From: Pseudobutyrivibrio sp. OR37
GTDB lineage: Bacteria; Bacillota; Clostridia; Lachnospirales; Lachnospiraceae
NCBI RefSeq assembly: GCF_900113655.1
Contig: NZ_FOQF01000001.1
Location: 124,001-188,000 of the forward strand
Direction of reading: 5' to 3'
Length of the DNA stretch: 64,000 nt
This document shows, piece after piece, positions 49,403 to 60,632 of this stretch (position 1 is the stretch's first letter; every line of letters starts with the position of its first letter). The position numbers were made by a program, and so were the translations under genes. The notes beneath the pieces are model-generated. The model searched no databases. It saw nothing but the letters and a program-made list of their open reading frames with translations, and was not told where the DNA came from.

Positions 49403-50751
49403 GAAAACTAAGAAAGCTCACAACAAAATCTTTATATATAGAGCTATGGCTCACCATTGGCTTTGCCATGCTAACAGGCTTGGTTATCTTTCTTCTACTA
49501 CAACAGGCTAATGAGGCCATCTACTCCTCTAAATGGTGCAAAAAGGTATACGTGCAAAAACGATTGGAGGAATCTATTGAGGATTTCAAAGATTATATTG
49601 AAAAAAATAATGTAGATGGGGATGACCCCTTGACAATTCAGGCCTGGGGCACACAAAACCCTTACGTATATTTCTACATCGAAAAAAATGGTAAAGTCAC
49701 CTACAATTTTTTGATGGATTATACAGATCCAGATTCGGACTATAATATCTCAGATGAAGATTTGGAAGAAAGCTATGAATACAACCCTTACGCAAAAGAA
49801 TACACCATAGACTTTGCTGATGGCCAGTATATAATGCATGTCTTTGAAGATTTTCAATATGATTTATACAACAAAATCCACATTATAAATCTATTTATAG
49901 CAGCCATAATAATCATCACTATTATCACTAGCCTTGTTAGAAAAAAGATTCACTACATCAAGGAGGTTACCTCTGGTATCAACATCCTGGAAGGCGGTGA
50001 TTTGAACTACAACATTCCTGTAAAGGGCTATGACGAAATTGCAAACGTGGCAACCAGCCTTAATTCCATGCGTGTCGCTGTTATTCAGCAGATGGAAAAT
50101 GAAAAGAAAGCCCTGCAGGCAAATAACAGCCTTGTCACTGCACTGTCCCATGACCTTCGCACTCCTCTTACAACACAGATGGGATATCTGGAAATCCTAA
50201 GGGAGCATCACTACAATTCCCAGGAGGAACTAGATAAATATTTGGATACAGCACTTACTACCTGCCACCAGATAAAAGAAATGTCTGATAGATTGTTTGA
50301 GTACTTCCTTGCATTTGAGCCTAATCCTAAAAGAACTGATGATGCCCTTGAGGAATTTGATGGAATGGAATTTTTTATGCAGCTTATATCTGAGCTTACT
50401 CCTCCTCTAATGGATCAGGGATTTAGCTTTGATTTTAAGGAACCTGCTGAAAACTTCACTATTAAAGTAAATGCAGATGATGTATTAAGAATCTTTAATA
50501 ACGTATTTACGAATATTGATAAATATGCTGATGAAACAAAGCCTGTAGAAATCAGCTTTGTTAAAGACAAGGATTACGCTACGGTTATATTTACAAATAT
50601 TATTAGAAATGAACCTAGAAAAAATGAAAGCGCCAAAATTGGTCTTATTAGTATATCAAGTCTTATGAAAAGACAAGGAGGCTCTAGCTTAACTAGAACC
50701 TCCAATAATAAGTTTACTTTAGAGTTAAAGTTTCCTGTTGCTCTTAGCTAA
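49399..50751 (+). CDS. Sensor histidine kinase of the two-component pair
   Basis: 450 residues. Two membrane helices (about 15-37 and 163-180) enclose a ~125-residue acidic sensor domain. HAMP linker about 182-235. The dimerisation helix holds the phospho-His in LSHDLRTPLT (about 250). The ATPase domain has an N-box-like RIFNNVFTNIDKYA, but a standard DxGxG G1 box is hard to find, the sequence there being FTNIIRNEP; activity may be altered. Its 3' end overlaps the convergent cohesin-like gene by 8 bases. Confidence 0.87.
   Translation: MRKLRKLTTKSLYIELWLTIGFAMLTGLVIFLLLQQANEAIYSSKWCKKVYVQKRLEESIEDFKDYIEKNNVDGDDPLTIQAWGTQNPYVYFYIEKNGKVTYNFLMDYTDPDSDYNISDEDLEESYEYNPYAKEYTIDFADGQYIMHVFEDFQYDLYNKIHIINLFIAAIIIITIITSLVRKKIHYIKEVTSGINILEGGDLNYNIPVKGYDEIANVATSLNSMRVAVIQQMENEKKALQANNSLVTALSHDLRTPLTTQMGYLEILREHHYNSQEELDKYLDTALTTCHQIKEMSDRLFEYFLAFEPNPKRTDDALEEFDGMEFFMQLISELTPPLMDQGFSFDFKEPAENFTIKVNADDVLRIFNNVFTNIDKYADETKPVEISFVKDKDYATVIFTNIIRNEPRKNESAKIGLISISSLMKRQGGSSLTRTSNNKFTLELKFPVALS
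50677..50703 (-). terminator. Hairpin in the kinase 3' end, probable terminator for the cohesin-like gene
   Basis: GGAGGCTCTAG (50677-50687) and CTAGAACCTCC (50693-50703), an 11-bp stem with one G-T type pair. On the minus strand it lies 41 bases after the cohesin-like gene stop and is followed by TTGTCTTTTC. It is embedded in kinase coding sequence. Confidence 0.45.
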
Positions 50752-51547
50752 ATAATCCAAAGAATTTCTTAACCTTGATTGATACAGGAGCTGACTCCTC
50801 AGAATATACTCTATTTGCACCACTACCCTGGTATGAAACAACCTTGTAGTAGTATGTCTTGTTGTTTGCAACTGCAATATCATATAGGCTGTTAAGTCCA
50901 CTAATTGTAGCAAACTTTGTGTACTTGCCATCCTTAGATGTGCTCTTGTAAACAACGTAGCCATCTGCATTTGCATCCTTAGACCACTTTACATATACAC
51001 CAAGGATTGTCTGGCTGATGCTGTTAATCTGTGGTGTCTTAAGTACAGGTCTACCTACAGATACAACATCCTCTAAATCCTGTGCTGCAACTACATCTGT
51101 AGCTTCATTGTTAAGACCAAGAACCTTTGTCTTGATAGTAGTATCCTGTAAAGAAAGACCAGCCTTAACTGTAAACTGAACAGTCATAAGTGTTCCTGCT
51201 GCAGTCTTTGGTGAATCGTTAACGAATGCATAAGCGATTCCCTTTGCTTCTTCATTTTCGTAATTCTTATTTACATCAACGTCACTAAACTTAATTCCCT
51301 CAGAATCAGATTTAAGAACTAATACATTTGGGTCGTACTCAACAGCAACTCTACCATCAGAAACAGTTGTCTTATCAAGTGTAAGCTTGTATGTAATCTT
51401 CTGGCTGTCTGCCTTTCCAGTAGATGTAACTGTTGTGTGTACTGGTGTAACATTTGCAGCCTTAGCCACATTTGTGTAAGGAGTAGATGTAAATAGTGTT
51501 AGCGCTGCCATGCAAAGAACGGCTGCTCTCTTTATTGATTTATTCAT
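50744..51547 (-). CDS. Secreted cohesin-like plus FN3 protein
   Basis: 267 residues from the ATG at 51547 (GGAGGAGAAG upstream); the ATG overlaps the protease gene stop by 8 bases. Signal peptide 1-30 with AKA cleavage. Residues about 33-155 have the beta-rich cohesin pattern: KITYKLTLDKTTVSDGRVAVEYDPNV, an FSDVDV segment, AYAFVNDSP and TLMTVQFTVKA. Residues about 165-262 are a fibronectin type III domain (VYVKWSKDANADGYVVYKS, YYYKVVSYQG). The upstream protease carries a dockerin-like module, so a cohesin-dockerin pair is plausible. No membrane anchor or sorting signal is seen. Confidence 0.75.
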   Translation of the reverse strand: MNKSIKRAAVLCMAALTLFTSTPYTNVAKAANVTPVHTTVTSTGKADSQKITYKLTLDKTTVSDGRVAVEYDPNVLVLKSDSEGIKFSDVDVNKNYENEEAKGIAYAFVNDSPKTAAGTLMTVQFTVKAGLSLQDTTIKTKVLGLNNEATDVVAAQDLEDVVSVGRPVLKTPQINSISQTILGVYVKWSKDANADGYVVYKSTSKDGKYTKFATISGLNSLYDIAVANNKTYYYKVVSYQGSGANRVYSEESAPVSIKVKKFFGLFS

Positions 51548-54500
51548 CACTTTCTTCTCCTCCTGTTGTTTCTTCTTCAGAAGCAGTGTCATCCTCTGAT
51601 GGTGTCTCATCGGAAGCCTTTTCCTCTGTAGCTTCTTCTGTAATATCTTCAACTACATCTTCTGCTTCTTCCTTATCCTGGTCATCAGTTGTTTCAGTCT
51701 TTTCTTCCTCTGTCTTTTCATCAGATTTCTTTTCAGCCTTCTTAACAACCTTAACCTTTACTTCAGCTGTAAGGTGCTTACCCTTCTTATCAGTTGCAAG
51801 TGTTGTTACCTTAACTACTGTCTCACCTTCTGCAACTGCTGTGATAACACCGTTTGCTGAAACCTTAGCAATGCTTTCATCATCGCTTGACCATTCAACA
51901 AGATTGTAGTTTTCTGCAAGCCACTTAGGACCAACTGTTGCCTTAACCTGTGTCTGCTTTCCTACCTCAAGCTCAACCTCATCCTTGTCAACTGTAATAT
52001 CTGTTACAAACTTTGTATCAGCATGTCCTGTGTTGTTGAATCTGTAAACTGATCCGTTAAGAGCGTAATCATATACCTCTACGTAGAATACATCATCTGG
52101 AGCATCGATAAGGATTTCCATATCTTTATCTGCTTCTTCCTGATTTACAGCGTACTTGCCAATTACAGTCTTCTTATCGCTAGCGATTACAAGAACTGAT
52201 GCTGTGTAGCGGTTATCGTAAGCTGTGATAGAGTACTTACCATCCTCAGTCTTAACAGCGTCTGTTACTACTGGTGCTGTGTTATCAATTGCCATTGGTG
52301 TCTTGATAAACATACCAGGAGCATTAAGTGTAGAAACATCTTCTACATCATTGTAGTAGCTTGGAATTGCCTGAAGTGAAATCTCAACCTCTGTACCATC
52401 TGCAAGTGGGTTACCATTAGCATCTGTACCAGCCCAGTTAAGATCCTGTGCTGCAATGTTCTCAAGCCATCTTCCCTTGCTTGCGCTATAGAACTCAGCG
52501 TACTGGTCTTTTTCGATATGCTCGAAATACTTCTCTCCGGTATTCTTATCAGTAATTGTAAGAATCAATCTACCAGCATTTCGCATTAATGAGTAATACT
52601 GTGCACCAAGCTTTGTTCCATTTTCAGAGCTGATTGCATTTCTATCTGCAATATACTTAGCATCATCTGCAAAGTAATTTGGAATGTAATACTTCTCGTT
52701 ATCTATTCCAAGTGGATAGATTGAAAGGAAGTTTGTCTTTGAAATGCCTGAATATGTTGCAGCATTTGCAGCGTATTCTGAATTGTGAACATACTCCTCA
52801 AAATCAAAATCCTCAAACATTGATGAATCCATCCAGCTTCCATAGAATGCAAGGAATGGAACTGACATGTCAACGCCACCCTTTACATAGATGAAACCAT
52901 CTACATACATACCATTTTCGAAGCCAGCTAAATATTCTCTATCGCTGTCTGAAAGGTTGATTGCTACATTAACCTTTGTGCTATCCTTTACCTCCACTAC
53001 TTCAAGTGCAAGATCAGCTACTGCCTCACCGCCCTTAAGCTGCTTAGATAAAGCGTAAACATCCTTTGTATCTACAAGTCCGTCATTGTTGAAATCATAG
53101 TATTCCTGATTCTGTTCAACGATAGCAACGTCACGTGAACCGTTAACAACCTGAAGAAGAATCTTTCTATCCTTGTTGTTTACCTTGCCATCATCGTTAA
53201 GATCGTAAACAAGCTTTGTATCATCAGCTGTAAGAGTTACTTCTGGGTTAAGCTTGTGTGAGCTTCCTGAAATGTAAGTTGTACCGTTTCTGTCATAAAG
53301 CTCTTCTGTAAGTACTGTTGAATCAAGTACATAATACTGTGCATCCTCGTCCATGTTATAAACATCGAATGAGAATGAGTAGTTACCTGACTTTGTTGGG
53401 TCATCACCAAGAACTGCCTTAACCTTACCGTCATTGCCTTCCTTGTCGCCTACTAAGATGTAAGCTGGTGATGAAATAGCGTCCTGAACATTTGCAAGAC
53501 CAGCACCCTGCGAACGAGGAGAATACTCAAGACCTGTCTTATCGTTATCCTCATAAAGTGGTGTTGCAGTACTCATAATAAGTGACTGTGCAAGTGTTCT
53601 AATTGAAATGTCGTTCTTTGCAGCAAGGTCATTTTCCTTGATGTACTGCTGTACAAGAGCACTCTGACCTGCAAGAGATGGAGCTGACATTGATGTACCT
53701 GACATCTGTCCGTATGTACCATTGTCTCTTGTTGAGTAGATGTTTCCACCTGGGCCTGTAATTTCTGGCTTAAGATCAAGTGAACCTGGAACACCGTAAG
53801 ATGAGAAATCACTCATTGTATATCCGCCAGGAACATCTCTGTCTGTTGCAACTGCTGTGTTAATCTTGATTGTTCCTTCGTATACGCCTTCAGCAACCTC
53901 TTTACCTGTTGCAGCAACTGCTTCACCCTCTGACTGCTTGATAGAAACTGCTGGAATAACAGCTGTGCTTCCCTGCATTGTCATTGTGATTGTGCCAGGC
54001 TGATTGTTAACAATAACAATTGCCTTTGCGCCTGCTGCCTCAGCATTCATCTGCTTCTGACCGAATGTGATTGCACCTCTGTATACAAATACAATCTTAT
54101 CCTTTACATCAACGCCTTCGTAATCAGCTGGCTCGCCTTTAGCGTTAAGGAATACGAATGGATACTCTGTACCGCTCTTGTCCTCTGACACATCAAGTGT
54201 TAAGAACTGAGGAGCAAGTGTATCATTTGCATCTGTATAGAAGATGTTCTTTCCATCAGAAAGTGTAAAGTTGTTAGCTGTCATACCGCTATTTACTGCT
54301 GATGCTACTGTAAATGCGTTTGTGTATGATCCAGGTGAACCTACTGTATCAAGGTTTACATCCTTTGAAAGGTTCACGCCATAGGTTGAGCTATCAGACC
54401 AACGACCTGCATTACCAGCTGAAATAGAAACAACTGTGCTTGTACCTTCAAGCTTCTTGAAGATTTCATTTACATACTCTTCTTCATCAGATGAGTTACC

Positions 54501-55727
54501 AGCTGCTGATGAGCCAAGACTTAAGTTGATTGCATCTGCCTTAAGAAGAAGTGCATCTTCGATAGCTGCCATGTAATCATCTGTGTAAGCACCACCGTTT
54601 GTACCGAATACCTTCATTGAGATAAGCTGTGCATCTGGTGCGATACCAACAACTCCTGCTGTCTCTCTGGCAAAGCCAGTAGCTGAAGCTGCGTTCTTTA
54701 CATAATAGTTTGCTGTAGCAATACCAGATACGTGTGTACCGTGGTCACCCTGCTCATCATTGTCATGTGTGATGTCAAGATTCTTGTCTACATAGTTAAA
54801 TGCGAATGGAACTTTGTCATTATTGAAAAGTTCATCTGCTGTAAGTCCTTCGTACTGCTTTGTAGCATTAAGATTTGGAAGGACATTTTCAATTTCGTCT
54901 GCATTAAGAAGATTGTAATCAGAAACGCTCTTGCTAGCTGCCTCTGCTGTCTCCTCTAAATGAGCATCAAATGCATCTGCATCAAATGATGGATGATCGA
55001 TATCGATACCTGTATCGATAACTGCGATACGAGTACCTGCACCAGTGTAGCCTGTAGCCCATGTCTCGTAGCTGCCAACCATATCACCAGATGTGATTGT
55101 GTTTGGCTCTGCCTCTACACATGGCTCATACTGTGATGCAACATAAACAGCCTCTACACCATCTACCTTTTCGATAGCTTCGATATCCTTAAAAGCTACA
55201 TCTGCTGAAATAGCATTTGTAAGGATTGAGAAGTTAAAGTTTACATCCAACTCTTCGCCATCTAAAGCTTCATTAGAAATCTTTTCTACCTGCTTCTCCT
55301 GAGCTGCTTCAATTTTGTCAGCGGCACGCATTGCTGATTTATTTTCAGCTAAATCCTCTGTGTCGTACCCCTTATCAAGGACGCTGTCGCCCTCCATTAC
55401 AATAATTACTCTAGTCTGTTCGTTAGGATCCACTTCCTCATTTGGTGTTTCAACATCCTCACCATTAAGAACTTCTGTAAGATCCTCGAGCCCCTCTTCC
55501 TTAGGGTCTACCTTTTCGAAGACTGGTAAATCTTCTGTTGCTTCTTCAGCTTCTGATTCTGCTTCAGACTGAGTATCATCGGCTTTGTCATTAGTTGTTT
55601 CAGATACAACTGTCTCATCTACCTGTTCTTCTACTGGACTAGCTACTGCAGTGACTGTTGGCGACATAGCAAGTGCTGCTGCCATAATCACTGACAATAC
55701 CTTCTTAGGTATCCAGCTTTTTCTCAT
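51540..55727 (-). CDS. Large secreted subtilisin-like protease with a dockerin-like module
   Basis: 1395 residues. Signal peptide 1-30, an acidic linker and an I9-type propeptide (about 105-205). The S8 catalytic triad is complete: Asp in VIDTGIDIDHPS (about 238), His in DHGTHVSGIA (about 327), Ser in GTSMSAPSLAG (about 678). A PA domain is inserted (about 545-610). Residues about 840-900 hold two EF-hand-like dockerin repeats: YDLNDDGKVNNKDRKILLQ and YDFNNDGLVDTKDVYALSK. A Big_2-type Ig domain (about 1235-1325) and a 70-residue Glu/Asp/Lys/Thr tail follow; no LPxTG. It resembles lactocepin/C5a-peptidase-type enzymes for extracellular protein breakdown. It is co-transcribed with the cohesin-like gene. 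Confidence 0.88.
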   Translation of the reverse strand: MRKSWIPKKVLSVIMAAALAMSPTVTAVASPVEEQVDETVVSETTNDKADDTQSEAESEAEEATEDLPVFEKVDPKEEGLEDLTEVLNGEDVETPNEEVDPNEQTRVIIVMEGDSVLDKGYDTEDLAENKSAMRAADKIEAAQEKQVEKISNEALDGEELDVNFNFSILTNAISADVAFKDIEAIEKVDGVEAVYVASQYEPCVEAEPNTITSGDMVGSYETWATGYTGAGTRIAVIDTGIDIDHPSFDADAFDAHLEETAEAASKSVSDYNLLNADEIENVLPNLNATKQYEGLTADELFNNDKVPFAFNYVDKNLDITHDNDEQGDHGTHVSGIATANYYVKNAASATGFARETAGVVGIAPDAQLISMKVFGTNGGAYTDDYMAAIEDALLLKADAINLSLGSSAAGNSSDEEEYVNEIFKKLEGTSTVVSISAGNAGRWSDSSTYGVNLSKDVNLDTVGSPGSYTNAFTVASAVNSGMTANNFTLSDGKNIFYTDANDTLAPQFLTLDVSEDKSGTEYPFVFLNAKGEPADYEGVDVKDKIVFVYRGAITFGQKQMNAEAAGAKAIVIVNNQPGTITMTMQGSTAVIPAVSIKQSEGEAVAATGKEVAEGVYEGTIKINTAVATDRDVPGGYTMSDFSSYGVPGSLDLKPEITGPGGNIYSTRDNGTYGQMSGTSMSAPSLAGQSALVQQYIKENDLAAKNDISIRTLAQSLIMSTATPLYEDNDKTGLEYSPRSQGAGLANVQDAISSPAYILVGDKEGNDGKVKAVLGDDPTKSGNYSFSFDVYNMDEDAQYYVLDSTVLTEELYDRNGTTYISGSSHKLNPEVTLTADDTKLVYDLNDDGKVNNKDRKILLQVVNGSRDVAIVEQNQEYYDFNNDGLVDTKDVYALSKQLKGGEAVADLALEVVEVKDSTKVNVAINLSDSDREYLAGFENGMYVDGFIYVKGGVDMSVPFLAFYGSWMDSSMFEDFDFEEYVHNSEYAANAATYSGISKTNFLSIYPLGIDNEKYYIPNYFADDAKYIADRNAISSENGTKLGAQYYSLMRNAGRLILTITDKNTGEKYFEHIEKDQYAEFYSASKGRWLENIAAQDLNWAGTDANGNPLADGTEVEISLQAIPSYYNDVEDVSTLNAPGMFIKTPMAIDNTAPVVTDAVKTEDGKYSITAYDNRYTASVLVIASDKKTVIGKYAVNQEEADKDMEILIDAPDDVFYVEVYDYALNGSVYRFNNTGHADTKFVTDITVDKDEVELEVGKQTQVKATVGPKWLAENYNLVEWSSDDESIAKVSANGVITAVAEGETVVKVTTLATDKKGKHLTAEVKVKVVKKAEKKSDEKTEEEKTETTDDQDKEEAEDVVEDITEEATEEKASDETPSEDDTASEEETTGGEESDE

Positions 55728-55938: not shown

Positions 55939-55967
55939 AGTATATGTTCAGTCGCATTTAAAGTCAA
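55939..55967 (-). promoter_or_regulatory. Sigma-A type promoter of the protease/cohesin-like unit
   Basis: Minus strand -35 TTGACT (55962-55967), 17-base spacer, -10 TATACT (55939-55944). The leader to the protease ATG is about 200 bases. Confidence 0.75.
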
Positions 55968-58080: not shown

Positions 58081-58846
58081 GGTAAGCCTCCTTCATTTCC
58101 TTAACAAAGCTGCCTACCTTCGATGGTGCATCCTTTCCATATTCTTCAATCACCCTTACGATGGCCGAGCCTACAATTGCTCCATCTGAAATATCTGCCA
58201 TTTTTGCAGCCTGCTCTGGGGTGGAAATACCAAAACCAACAGCACATGGCACATCAGTGTTCTTCCTAACCTGTTCAACAAGATTAGCTATACTTTCATC
58301 AAGCTTTGTTCTTGCTCCTGTAACACCAAGGCTGGATACTACATATATAAATCCCTTGGCTTCCTTTGCAATCATGTCGATTCGCTCCTTTGAGGTTGGA
58401 GCAATCATTGAAATGAAATCCACATCATATTTTGAAGCTGTTTCTTCAAATTCTGCTTTTTCCTCAAAAGGTACGTCAGGTAAAATGATTCCATCGATTC
58501 CTACATTTTTACATTTTTCGAAAAATCTACCTGTACCATAGGAAAAGACAACGTTGGCGTATGTCATAAATACAAGTGGAACCTGCACCTTATATCTCAC
58601 CCTTTTTACCATGTCAAAAACATCATCTGTTGTTATTTTATTTTTCAAGGCACGGATATTGGCGCCCTGGATTACAGGACCTTCTGCTGTTGGGTCAGAA
58701 AATGGGATTCCAAGCTCAATCAAATCTGCTCCATTTTTTTCAAGCTCTACAATAATCTTTTCAGTGGTTTCTAAATCAGGATCTCCACATGTGATAAATG
58801 GAATGAATGCCTTTTTATTATTGAATGCCTCTGCTATTTTACTCAT
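58070..58846 (-). CDS. trpA: Tryptophan synthase alpha chain
   Basis: 258 residues from the ATG at 58846, which has GGGGAGG upstream and overlaps the stop of trpFB by 8 bases. Motifs: FITCGDPD with the family start, the catalytic Glu in [16 protein letters not shown] (about 48) and Asp in [23 protein letters not shown] and [10 protein letters not shown] form the phosphate site. It cleaves indole-3-glycerol phosphate to indole, which is channelled to the TrpB domain. Confidence 0.94.
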
Positions 58847-60632
58847 GGATATCCTCCCCTCTGTAGCGTGCGATTGCTGCACAATCCTTGTCTCCTCTGC
58901 CTGAAACTGTAACGATAATAATCTGATCTTTATTCATTGTTGGGGCCAGCTTCTTCGCATATGCGATAGCATGGCTGGATTCGATTGCTGCAATGATTCC
59001 TTCTGTTTTTGCGATGTATTCAAAGGCATCTACTGCCTCGTCATCTGTAACTGGCACATATTTTGCTCTGCCAATATCATGAAGATGTGCATGCTCTGGA
59101 CCTACCCCTGGGTAATCTAAGCCTGCAGAAATAGAGTAAACCGGAGCAATCTGTCCATATTCATCCTGGCAGAAATATGATTTCATACCATGGAAAATTC
59201 CGATTCTTCCTGTGTTTACTGTAGCTGCTGTTTCAAATGTATCAATGCCTCGTCCTGCAGCCTCGCAACCAATCAGCTGAACTCCTTCATCCTCGATGTA
59301 GTGATAGAAGGAACCAATTGCATTGCTTCCACCACCAACACATGCGATAACTGCATCCGGAAGTCTTCCCTCTAACTCAAGAATCTGTCTTCTGCTTTCC
59401 TTTGAAATAACTGCCTGAAAATCTCTTACAATAGTAGGGAATGGATGTGGTCCCATTACAGAACCTAAGCAATAATGTGTATCATCAATACGAGTTGTCC
59501 ATTCTCTCATTGCCTCTGAAACTGCATCCTTAAGTGTGGCTGTTCCTGATGTAACTGGGATAACGTCTGCTCCAAGAAGCTTCATACGATATACGTTAAG
59601 GGCCTGTCTTTCTGTGTCCTCTTTTCCCATAAATACAACACATTCCATTCCAAGAAGTGCTGCAGCTGTTGCTGTTGCAACGCCGTGCTGGCCTGCGCCA
59701 GTTTCTGCAATAAGTCTGGTCTTTCCCATCTTTTTAGCGAGAAGTGCCTGGCCAAGTACGTTGTTAATCTTGTGACTTCCTGTGTGGTTCAAATCTTCTC
59801 TTTTAAGATAGATTTTTGCGCCGCCTAAGTCCTCTGTCATCTTTTTAGCATAGTATAAAAGGCTTGGTCTTCCTGCATAGTTGTTAAGTAAATCAGTAAG
59901 CTCTTTGTTGAATTCTGGGTCGTCCTTGTAATGGTTGTATGCCTCCTCAAGCTCATTTACTGCATTCATAAGTGTCTCTGGAATATACTGACCGCCGTGA
60001 ACACCAAAGCGTCCTTTGCTCTTTGAACTTGTACCGTCTTTACGAACTGCACTGACAAAGCTAATCATCTTTTCCTCATCCTTCAAATGATTTGTTTCAA
60101 TTCCTGTGCTTACATCTACTCCAAATGGCTTTGTGATTTCTATTGCAGAAGCCACATTCTCCTGGTTTAATCCTCCTGCAAGAATGAAAGGTCTGTCTAT
60201 AAATGTCAAAAGCTTTAAATCCTTAATTGGAACTCCTTCACCATTTCCCGCATCAAGCATTATCATATCGGCGTTTGATTTTTCAGCCTTAATCAGCTCC
60301 TCTGGAGAGTTGGCCTTAAAGGTTTTGATTACTGGAATGTTGTTATCCATAAGCTCCTTGATGTAATCCTCGTCCTCGTTGCCATGAAGCTGAGCCACAT
60401 CGATTATATTTTCGTCAAACAGCTCCTCCACCTGTGAGGCTGGAGCATCTACAAAAACACCTACAGCTTTAATTTCAGGATTTAACATGCTTTTAAGCTG
60501 CTTTGCTTTTGCTTTAGTCACGTTTCTTCTGCTTTTGTCATAAAAAACAAAACCGATATATTCTGGCTTTAGCTTGTTTGCAGTTTTTATATCTTCTTCT
60601 CTTGTCAGTCCACATAGCTTAATAGTAGTCAT
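58839..60632 (-). CDS. TrpF-TrpB fusion: phosphoribosylanthranilate isomerase and tryptophan synthase beta
   Basis: 597 residues. Residues 1-~200 are Trp[13 protein letters not shown] with the catalytic Cys near 7, [17 protein letters not shown] and [21 protein letters not shown]. After a short linker ([19 protein letters not shown]) TrpB runs from about 208 to the end: PLP Lys near 286 in [34 protein letters not shown] and SGRGDKD. It carries out two non-adjacent trp pathway steps on one chain. Confidence 0.95.

Follow-up and report, generated by a model that had tools for sequence, protein, structure and literature searches.

A predicted cohesin-dockerin couple that may hold a secreted S8 protease at the surface of a rumen Pseudobutyrivibrio

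We analysed a stretch of 64,000 nucleotides (the window) from Pseudobutyrivibrio sp. OR37, which is part of one contig (NZ_FOQF01000001.1, positions 124,001 to 188,000) of a 3.56 Mb genome that is 99.99% complete. Two adjacent genes on the minus strand encode an S8 (subtilase) protease of 1395 amino acids (aa) and, after it, a small partner protein of 267 aa. As the initial annotation of this DNA had reported, the partner gene overlaps the protease gene by 8 bases. It had further proposed that a dockerin in the protease and a cohesin in the partner form a dedicated pair, encoded by a two-gene operon and put to a non-cellulolytic use. Our analysis supports this proposal. From sequence comparison, we consider it fairly probable that the two proteins are a dedicated cohesin-dockerin couple, most likely holding the protease at the cell surface. 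The features are collected in Table 1.

The protease has the features of an S8 subtilase. Its catalytic triad is intact (D238/H329/S679, positions assigned from subtilisin motifs), and a PA domain lies at residues 531–603, inside the Peptidase_S8 domain (Pfam E-value 2.1e-15, over the cut-off). The two dockerin-type calcium repeats noticed earlier were recovered as DLNDDGKVNNKD (residues 842–853) and DFNNDGLVDTKD (residues 878–889), and the Pfam model Dockerin_1 (PF00404) matched residues 841–897 with 27.1 bits (E 4.8e-6), passing the cut-off of 22.9. At loop positions 1, 3, 5, 9 and 12, which we take to be the calcium ligands, the first loop has D, N, D, N, D and the second D, N, D, D, D; both loops are kept in 12 of 12 aligned orthologs. 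Searched against solved structures, a profile of the dockerin region matched 4fl4 (2.3e-5) and 1daq (1.1e-4) and, weakly, C5a peptidase (0.022).

Cellulosomal dockerins are usually terminal. In the intact Fn1-dockerin stretch of our protease the model fn3_5 (PF06280) was not detected even at E 10. When residues 839–902 were excised in silico, fn3_5 spanned the junction over profile positions 10–112 of 112, with 26.0 bits (E 1.6e-5) against a cut-off of 27.6. The same excision in an ortholog (L044; L and G numbers denote loci and genomes) gave fn3_5 at 1.9e-5. Because fn3_5 appears across the junction once the dockerin is removed, the dockerin of this C5a-peptidase/lactocepin-like enzyme is predicted to be no C-terminal appendage but an insert within the Fn1-like domain. 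Among the relatives described below, fn3_5 is over the cut-off in L104, L105, L107 and L151, and in the first three its best stretch begins at profile position 55–57, past the insert.

For the partner, the initial annotation had suggested a cohesin-like fold followed by FN3, and had named the lack of a predicted cohesin fold as evidence against the pair. Structure prediction bore out the fold, while the Pfam cohesin search (PF00963) remained under its cut-off (20.0 bits, E 8.2e-4, against 24.1). An AlphaFold2 model built from 12 orthologs had a mean confidence (pLDDT) of 81.7, and across residues 41–260 every ten-residue block averaged 78–95. The top four rows of its VIA-align comparison were cohesins, including 4ums (Z 13.7, root-mean-square deviation 3.2 Å over 138 residues) and 6kgf (Z 13.6). 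Further cohesins stood lower in the list (1g1k, Z 13.1; 2xdh, 12.9; 2jh2, 12.6), and the cohesin matches fall mostly on residues 32–167. The partner is thus modelled as having a cohesin-type beta-sandwich. The Pfam cohesin cut-off is passed by five genus orthologs (G005, G008, G009, G010, G022) and by the partner at L100. A Pfam scan of the partner gave no FN3 match. The best Foldseek match was 2w1n, the cohesin-FN3 double module of Clostridium perfringens GH84C, with a low whole-chain TM-score (0.35–0.40) that we attribute to a presumably different angle between the domains. Searched against PDB sequences, the partner cohesin profile gave six weak matches, five of them to influenza haemagglutinin (best E 0.048), which were taken as chance, and none to solved cohesins.

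Table 1. Features of the protease-partner locus (window positions; all on the minus strand)
Feature	Position	Strand	Basis and remarks
S8 (subtilase) protease gene	51540-55727	-	1395 aa; PA insert, Fn1-like domain predicted to be interrupted by dockerin, Big_2, acidic C-terminal tail; export signal-like N-terminus read from sequence
Peptidase_S8 domain, residues 229-743	53499-55043	-	Pfam 3.2e-41, over cut-off
Type I dockerin, residues 839-902	53022-53213	-	Calcium loops 842-853 and 878-889; predicted insert inside Fn1/fn3_5 domain
Big_2 domain, residues 1241-1314	51786-52007	-	Pfam, over cut-off; absent from Butyrivibrio orthologs L044 and L045 (alignment)
Acidic low-complexity C-tail of protease	51543-51782	-	No sortase-type anchor; terminal GG-acidic motif largely conserved
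Partner gene	50744-51547	-	267 aa from ATG at 51547; signal-like N-terminus (read from sequence), cohesin, FN3, short basic/aromatic C-tail
Cohesin domain, residues 32-167	51047-51454	-	AlphaFold2 and VIA-align, Z 13.7; Pfam sub-threshold here
FN3 domain, residues 168-262	50762-51046	-	Fold match of model to FN3 domains over 167-262
Conserved C-terminal tail IKVKKFFGLFS	50747-50779	-	Ortholog alignment; pattern scan
Ribosome-binding-type site AGGAGGAG of partner gene	51557-51564	-	Within protease gene 3' end, 9 nt before partner ATG; read from sequence, strong
Promoter-like site upstream of protease gene	55939-55967	-	10/12 consensus match only
Terminator-like hairpin after partner gene	50677-50703	-	12 pairs; consensus match only

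A search of the whole genome returned one full dockerin over the cut-off and one cohesin match, and these lie in the two adjacent genes. The only other dockerin match covers 22 of 57 positions, is below the cut-off and falls within a Cas13a protein. This search found no multi-cohesin scaffoldin and no set of dockerin enzymes, which together would define a cellulosome. With one cohesin match and no other dockerin over the cut-off, a cellulosome component was rejected. A chance motif was likewise rejected, on the grounds of genome-wide uniqueness, conservation and the association test described below.

We then examined the genus, where, as in all our searches, one genome per species was covered and many relatives are draft genomes. 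Partner (E 1e-98 or better) and protease (cut-off E 1e-20) co-occur in the same 12 of 29 genomes and are both missing from the other 17, which supports a dedicated pair. In all 12 genomes carrying both, the two genes are at most 50 bases apart. Weak partner matches occurred in long frames of G024 (E 1.5e-8) and G028 (1.4e-4). The G024 match is an FN3 part without cohesin, one of many FN3 proteins drawn by the FN3 part of the query, and L046–L049, matched only within query residues 117–260, were left out. In the pair-carrying genomes no dockerin besides that of the protease reaches E 0.01 (a second match in G010 overlaps the first). Three genus genomes have other dockerins (G011, G017, G024), and cohesin-like matches elsewhere in the genus, all partial, were seen in G007, G015, G018, G021 and G027, those of G007 and G027 over the cut-off. 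At the 12 loci (L034–L045) the order from protease to partner is kept, with an overlap of 1–11 bases depending on the start codon chosen; the protease is truncated by the contig end in L034, L037 and L043. The neighbourhoods vary: what we take to be trp or glutamine-synthetase-like genes flank the pair at one end, what seems to be a histidine kinase or an arginyl-tRNA-synthetase-like gene flanks it at the opposite end, and the Butyrivibrio loci have yet other neighbours.

The initial annotation had asked for the same gene pair elsewhere, and comparable arrangements were also found outside the genus. A profile of the Fn1-dockerin region found matches in 9 of 397 family genomes and a protease-region search found S8 proteases in 24 of 250, the window's own genome included in both; 20 further S8 regions were scanned with the same models as a control. 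A cohesin gene adjoins a dockerin-bearing S8 gene at L100, L102, L104, L105 and L107, upstream or downstream, and at L151. The companions of the cohesin in the first five partners vary between FN3, FIVAR and an anchor only. In other lineages the cohesin is part of the protease chain itself: L108, L109 (two full proteins), L111 and L150, the last found in the control search (E 5e-11). At L151 the Fn1 domain is whole (fn3_5 1.7e-14), and two EF-hand halves lie in the catalytic domain; these are individually weak in the dockerin profile (E 0.007 and 0.0005) and give no Pfam dockerin match at E 0.1. The neighbour of this protease is an anchored cohesin over the Pfam cut-off (32.3 bits against 24.1). 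The dockerin of L151 has apparently moved into the catalytic domain while its cohesin neighbour remained.

Counted by locus, a cohesin stands beside or within the chain of 11 of 13 dockerin-bearing S8s and of none of 16 dockerin-less S8s (p = 2.3e-6). The same association counted by genome is 7 of 8 against 0 of 14 (p = 4.7e-5), where we assigned the groups of both counts ourselves and G318 was counted in both groups. All 16 dockerin-less S8s show at least 1.7 kb on both sides. Left out were L101 and L106, whose partner side is at a contig end, L149, whose protease is cut by a contig end, and the dockerin-less L160, whose contig ends at the open reading frame. Inclusion of L160 gave 11 of 13 against 0 of 17 (p = 1.4e-6), and removal of the degenerate L105 gave 10 of 12 against 0 of 16 (p = 5e-6). 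Nine of the 11 positives (all but L150 and L151) had themselves entered the iterated cohesin profile, so held-out tests were run. With L108, L109 and L111 held out, their cohesins were found at E 3.2e-8 to 2.1e-5 and reversed decoys at 0.43. When L104, L105, L107, L108, L109 and L111 were held out together, five were found at E 8e-13 to 1.9e-5; the L109 proteins scored 0.0023 and 0.48, the latter no better than decoys (0.8).

Cohesins are as many as dockerin-type S8s in 7 of the 10 genomes that were searched (G010, G121, G202, G247, G305, G309, G318). For G202, four dockerin-type S8 loci are set against three whole cohesin genes and a fragment at a contig end, which was counted; its protease on contig C56 likewise lies where the contig ends, next to the tail of a cohesin gene. 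Several observations weigh against a dedicated couple. Besides the sub-threshold Pfam score of the partner, both exceptions to the association (L103 and L159) are dockerin-bearing S8s without a neighbouring cohesin in one genome, G212; the L159 dockerin is C-terminal, and no cohesin was found within the region examined. G212 has 22 dockerin matches over the cut-off, many in frames of 1100–2500 aa, and only two cohesin matches, which adjoin one dockerin gene and lie away from the dockerin-bearing S8s. One anchored cohesin possibly serves many dockerin proteins there. G137 has two cohesins for one dockerin-type S8, the second cohesin-like domain lacking a recognised dockerin, and no cohesin was found in G434, which is 81% complete with its protease at a contig end. 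In addition, L105 and L106 have degenerate dockerins, the paralogs in G202 and G305 are non-independent, and an AlphaFold2 model of protease residues 206–1232 reached a pLDDT of 38.7 and was left unused.

Fusion of two modules in some lineages, with adjacency in other lineages, classically points to physical partnership. On this strong though indirect ground, the cohesin and dockerin modules very likely bind each other specifically. In the mechanism that we propose, the Fn1 domain behind the catalytic domain of the secreted protease would expose an inserted dockerin loaded with calcium, and the product of the overlapping next gene would supply a single matching cohesin. Comparative genomics suggests that the two would lock outside the cell, one to one. 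The couple would fix the enzyme at the surface: in relatives from other genera the partner bears a wall anchor that the protease lacks, and in the window's clade FN3 and the conserved tail IKVKKFFGLFS would take the place of the anchor. Cellulosome-type parts thus appear to have been reused as a private one-to-one protease coupling in a rumen bacterium that has no cellulosome.

Tethering is indicated because partners carry anchors that their proteases lack. A sortase-type anchor, defined as a C-terminal TG motif with a membrane span and a basic tail, is present on five of the six separate partners outside the genus (L102, L104, L105, L107, L151) and on none of the six corresponding proteases. 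At L111 cohesin and anchor are both in the protease chain. G318 offers a contrast within one genome: its dockerin-less S8 (L158) is self-anchored, while its dockerin-bearing S8 (L107) is unanchored and has an anchored partner. We therefore regard surface tethering as likely in the anchored relatives. Other findings weigh against it. The partners of the window and of L100 lack a sortase-type anchor, and the anchor scan found none in the fused L108, L109 (two) and L150; tethering is therefore not the whole story. Nor is a missing anchor peculiar to dockerin-bearing S8s, because 14 of 17 dockerin-less S8s also have neither a C-terminal anchor nor a membrane span; of the other three, two carry a sortase-type anchor and the third just a membrane span. 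The window's protease has no C-terminal sortase anchor of its own, and its genome has seven sortase matches, yet the partner lacks a sorting motif. For the window's own pair, tethering is consequently a tentative proposal that may well not hold.

The partner C-terminus is kept as IKVKKFFGLFS or a close variant among orthologs. A loose pattern for this ending matched 14 of 905 scanned open reading frames, namely the 12 partner orthologs, an unrelated-looking 388-aa frame, and a dockerin-less S8 of another genus. The comparison points weakly to FN3 and this tail as the surface-holding part in the window's clade. The dockerin-less S8 is a 1212-aa protease (L125/L153, G119) whose C-terminus, VKKVFKKIFGWIRH, resembles the partner tail; the shared ending is perhaps a common surface-holding signal.

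Since the fused forms other than L111 are unanchored, the joint presumably also does something else, for example stabilising or gating the enzyme. Taken further, the couple could be a structural or regulatory clasp in place of a tether, in which the protease would be stabilised, matured or gated once the partner docks on the Fn1 insert; fused relatives would achieve the same in one chain. The unanchored fused chains of L108, L109 (two) and L150, the unanchored partner in the window and the position of the insert in the domain after the protease domain all fit such a role. The sortase-type anchors on five of six separate partners and the anchored cohesin chain of L111 argue against it, and contact between dockerin and active site was not seen in any structure, the protease model having the low pLDDT given above. 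We consider a clasp that replaces the tether unlikely. A broader form of the idea is rather improbable: the cohesin-dockerin joint would be an interchangeable clasp inside the protease, closed within one chain or between two, and its closure onto Fn1 (in L151, the catalytic domain) would make activity or stability dependent on calcium and partner, giving a two-chain surface protease gated by its partner.

Two further explanations are much less probable than surface tethering by a dedicated couple. The EF-hand insert might be no more than a calcium-stabilised structural loop of Fn1, with the cohesin-fold neighbour an unrelated surface protein of the same operon. A cohesin fold by itself is no proof of binding, the cohesin scores under the Pfam cut-off and some inserts (L105, L106) are degenerate; but the association by locus and by genome, the cohesin-dockerin fusions and the moved dockerin of L151 make this very unlikely. 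Also very unlikely is a general receptor role, as in simple cellulosomes, in which the cohesin-FN3 protein would display further dockerin proteins as well: G212 has a wall-anchored cohesin gene beside a dockerin gene presumably of GH3 type (named by likeness to L112/L113) along with its many dockerins, and G309, G202, G247 and G318 carry a dockerin protein besides the S8, but no other dockerin was found over the cut-off in the window's genome, and the other 11 pair-carrying genus genomes have only the protease dockerin at E 0.01 or better.

Several known systems resemble the couple in part. The cohesin (X82)/dockerin enzyme complexes of C. perfringens are likewise non-cellulosomal, with single cohesins and pairwise coupling of enzymes; the best Foldseek match of the partner comes from one of them, and some partners here also carry FIVAR, which in C. 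perfringens is found next to dockerin. Their modules belong to glycoside hydrolases; in our pair a protease carries the dockerin internally, and the product of the next gene, a small protein without a recognised catalytic domain, carries the cohesin. Pairwise use of such modules is stated in one report (PMC12997984). Type I cellulosome cohesins and dockerins (4ums, 6kgf, 1g1k; 4fl4, 1daq) share folds and calcium loops with the couple, but the present genome has no scaffoldin or other full dockerin, and the dockerin is inserted in a domain. In ScaO/ScaO2-like scaffoldins of Acetivibrio and Clostridium alkalicellulosi, a single chain combines cohesin, dockerin and FN3 with an S8-peptidase-like domain. 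Such a protein occurs in A. mesophilus (PMC11557425), and ScaO and a symbol for S8 subtilisin-like peptidase share one figure legend (PMC3413522). Unlike the proteins studied here, in which cohesin and dockerin are far apart or on two proteins, these have a C-terminal Coh-Doc unit and belong to a cellulosome producer. C5a-peptidase/lactocepin-type cell-envelope proteases (SGO_0316 family) are also S8 enzymes with a PA insert and have an fn3_5/Fn1-like domain, as is predicted for the present protease, and the protease matched NCBIfam NF040553 at 2e-57, with 194.8 bits far under the cut-off of 1400. In contrast to that type, our protease has no C-terminal anchor of its own and a dockerin predicted to lie within Fn1.

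Peptidases with dockerins have been described for Ruminococcus flavefaciens and the Limousia mucinolysome (PMC2930009, PMC12997984). Those systems have several scaffoldins, some with tandem cohesins, whereas here there is one single-cohesin partner. A 2008 domain survey lists Subt-(Dockerin_1)2 and Sub_N-Subt-PA-Dockerin, filed under cellulose degradation and metabolism, and the accessible part of it names no cohesin partner (PMC2605481). The literature already contains non-cellulosomal cohesin-dockerin pairing, dockerin peptidases, subtilase-dockerin proteins, single-cohesin proteins that have membrane helices at the C-terminus, and an S8-Coh-Doc scaffoldin (PMC2605481, PMC11557425, PMC12997984, PMC2930009, PMC3413522). 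A full-text literature search, which leaves subscription papers mostly outside, returned, in the excerpts it gave, no dedicated protease-cohesin couple from overlapping genes, no Fn1-inserted dockerin and no series of one-chain, two-chain and relocated forms.

The paper on B. proteoclasticus B316 reports neither a dockerin among the secreted polysaccharide-degrading enzymes nor any scaffoldin or cohesin, and in the Hungate1000 paper Clostridiales that have few dockerins and lack cohesins are regarded as most likely non-cellulosomal. Rumen Butyrivibrio-type bacteria have so far been described in such sources as being without cellulosome parts. A private one-to-one couple whose cohesin is too divergent for the Pfam cut-off could escape such counts. 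If the predicted binding is true, a single protease is held or clasped by a cohesin-dockerin joint whose natural one-chain and two-chain forms can be compared, and protein engineering would gain a new pair with the dockerin as an internal insert.

The neighbouring genes, which we take to be a response regulator/histidine kinase and HlyD/ABC genes, were rejected as part of the unit, as they were not seen beside the pair in L038–L040 and L043–L045. Promoter-like sites of the kind seen upstream of the protease gene are fewer than in shuffles (8 against a mean of 14.2).

Other cohesin-dockerin arrangements were seen in the family. In three genomes (L112:294-6618, L113:1919-7800, L191:3900-10034) an enzyme whose dockerin is C-terminal (Pfam assigns it to GH3 in L112 and L113) has two cohesin genes before or after it, only one of which encodes a sortase-type anchor. 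At L187:2588-6384 a 634-aa protein with a C-terminal dockerin (48.3 bits) adjoins a protein of 629 aa that has a weakly cohesin-like stretch (E 0.0016) and no Pfam cohesin match. The large protein encoded at L185:1-5622 (G137:C84) combines a cohesin-like domain (E 3e-6) with a TGD-type C-terminal anchor read from sequence and has no recognised dockerin partner. Apart from these, the window's genome encodes Cas13a (L002, G000:C71; NF038188 at 4.6e-212 for an 861-aa piece of a longer frame). Finally, window positions 58839-60632, within a trp cluster, hold a TrpF-TrpB fusion (phosphoribosylanthranilate isomerase-tryptophan synthase beta) that matches NF010376 at 1.9e-229, slightly below the family cut-off.

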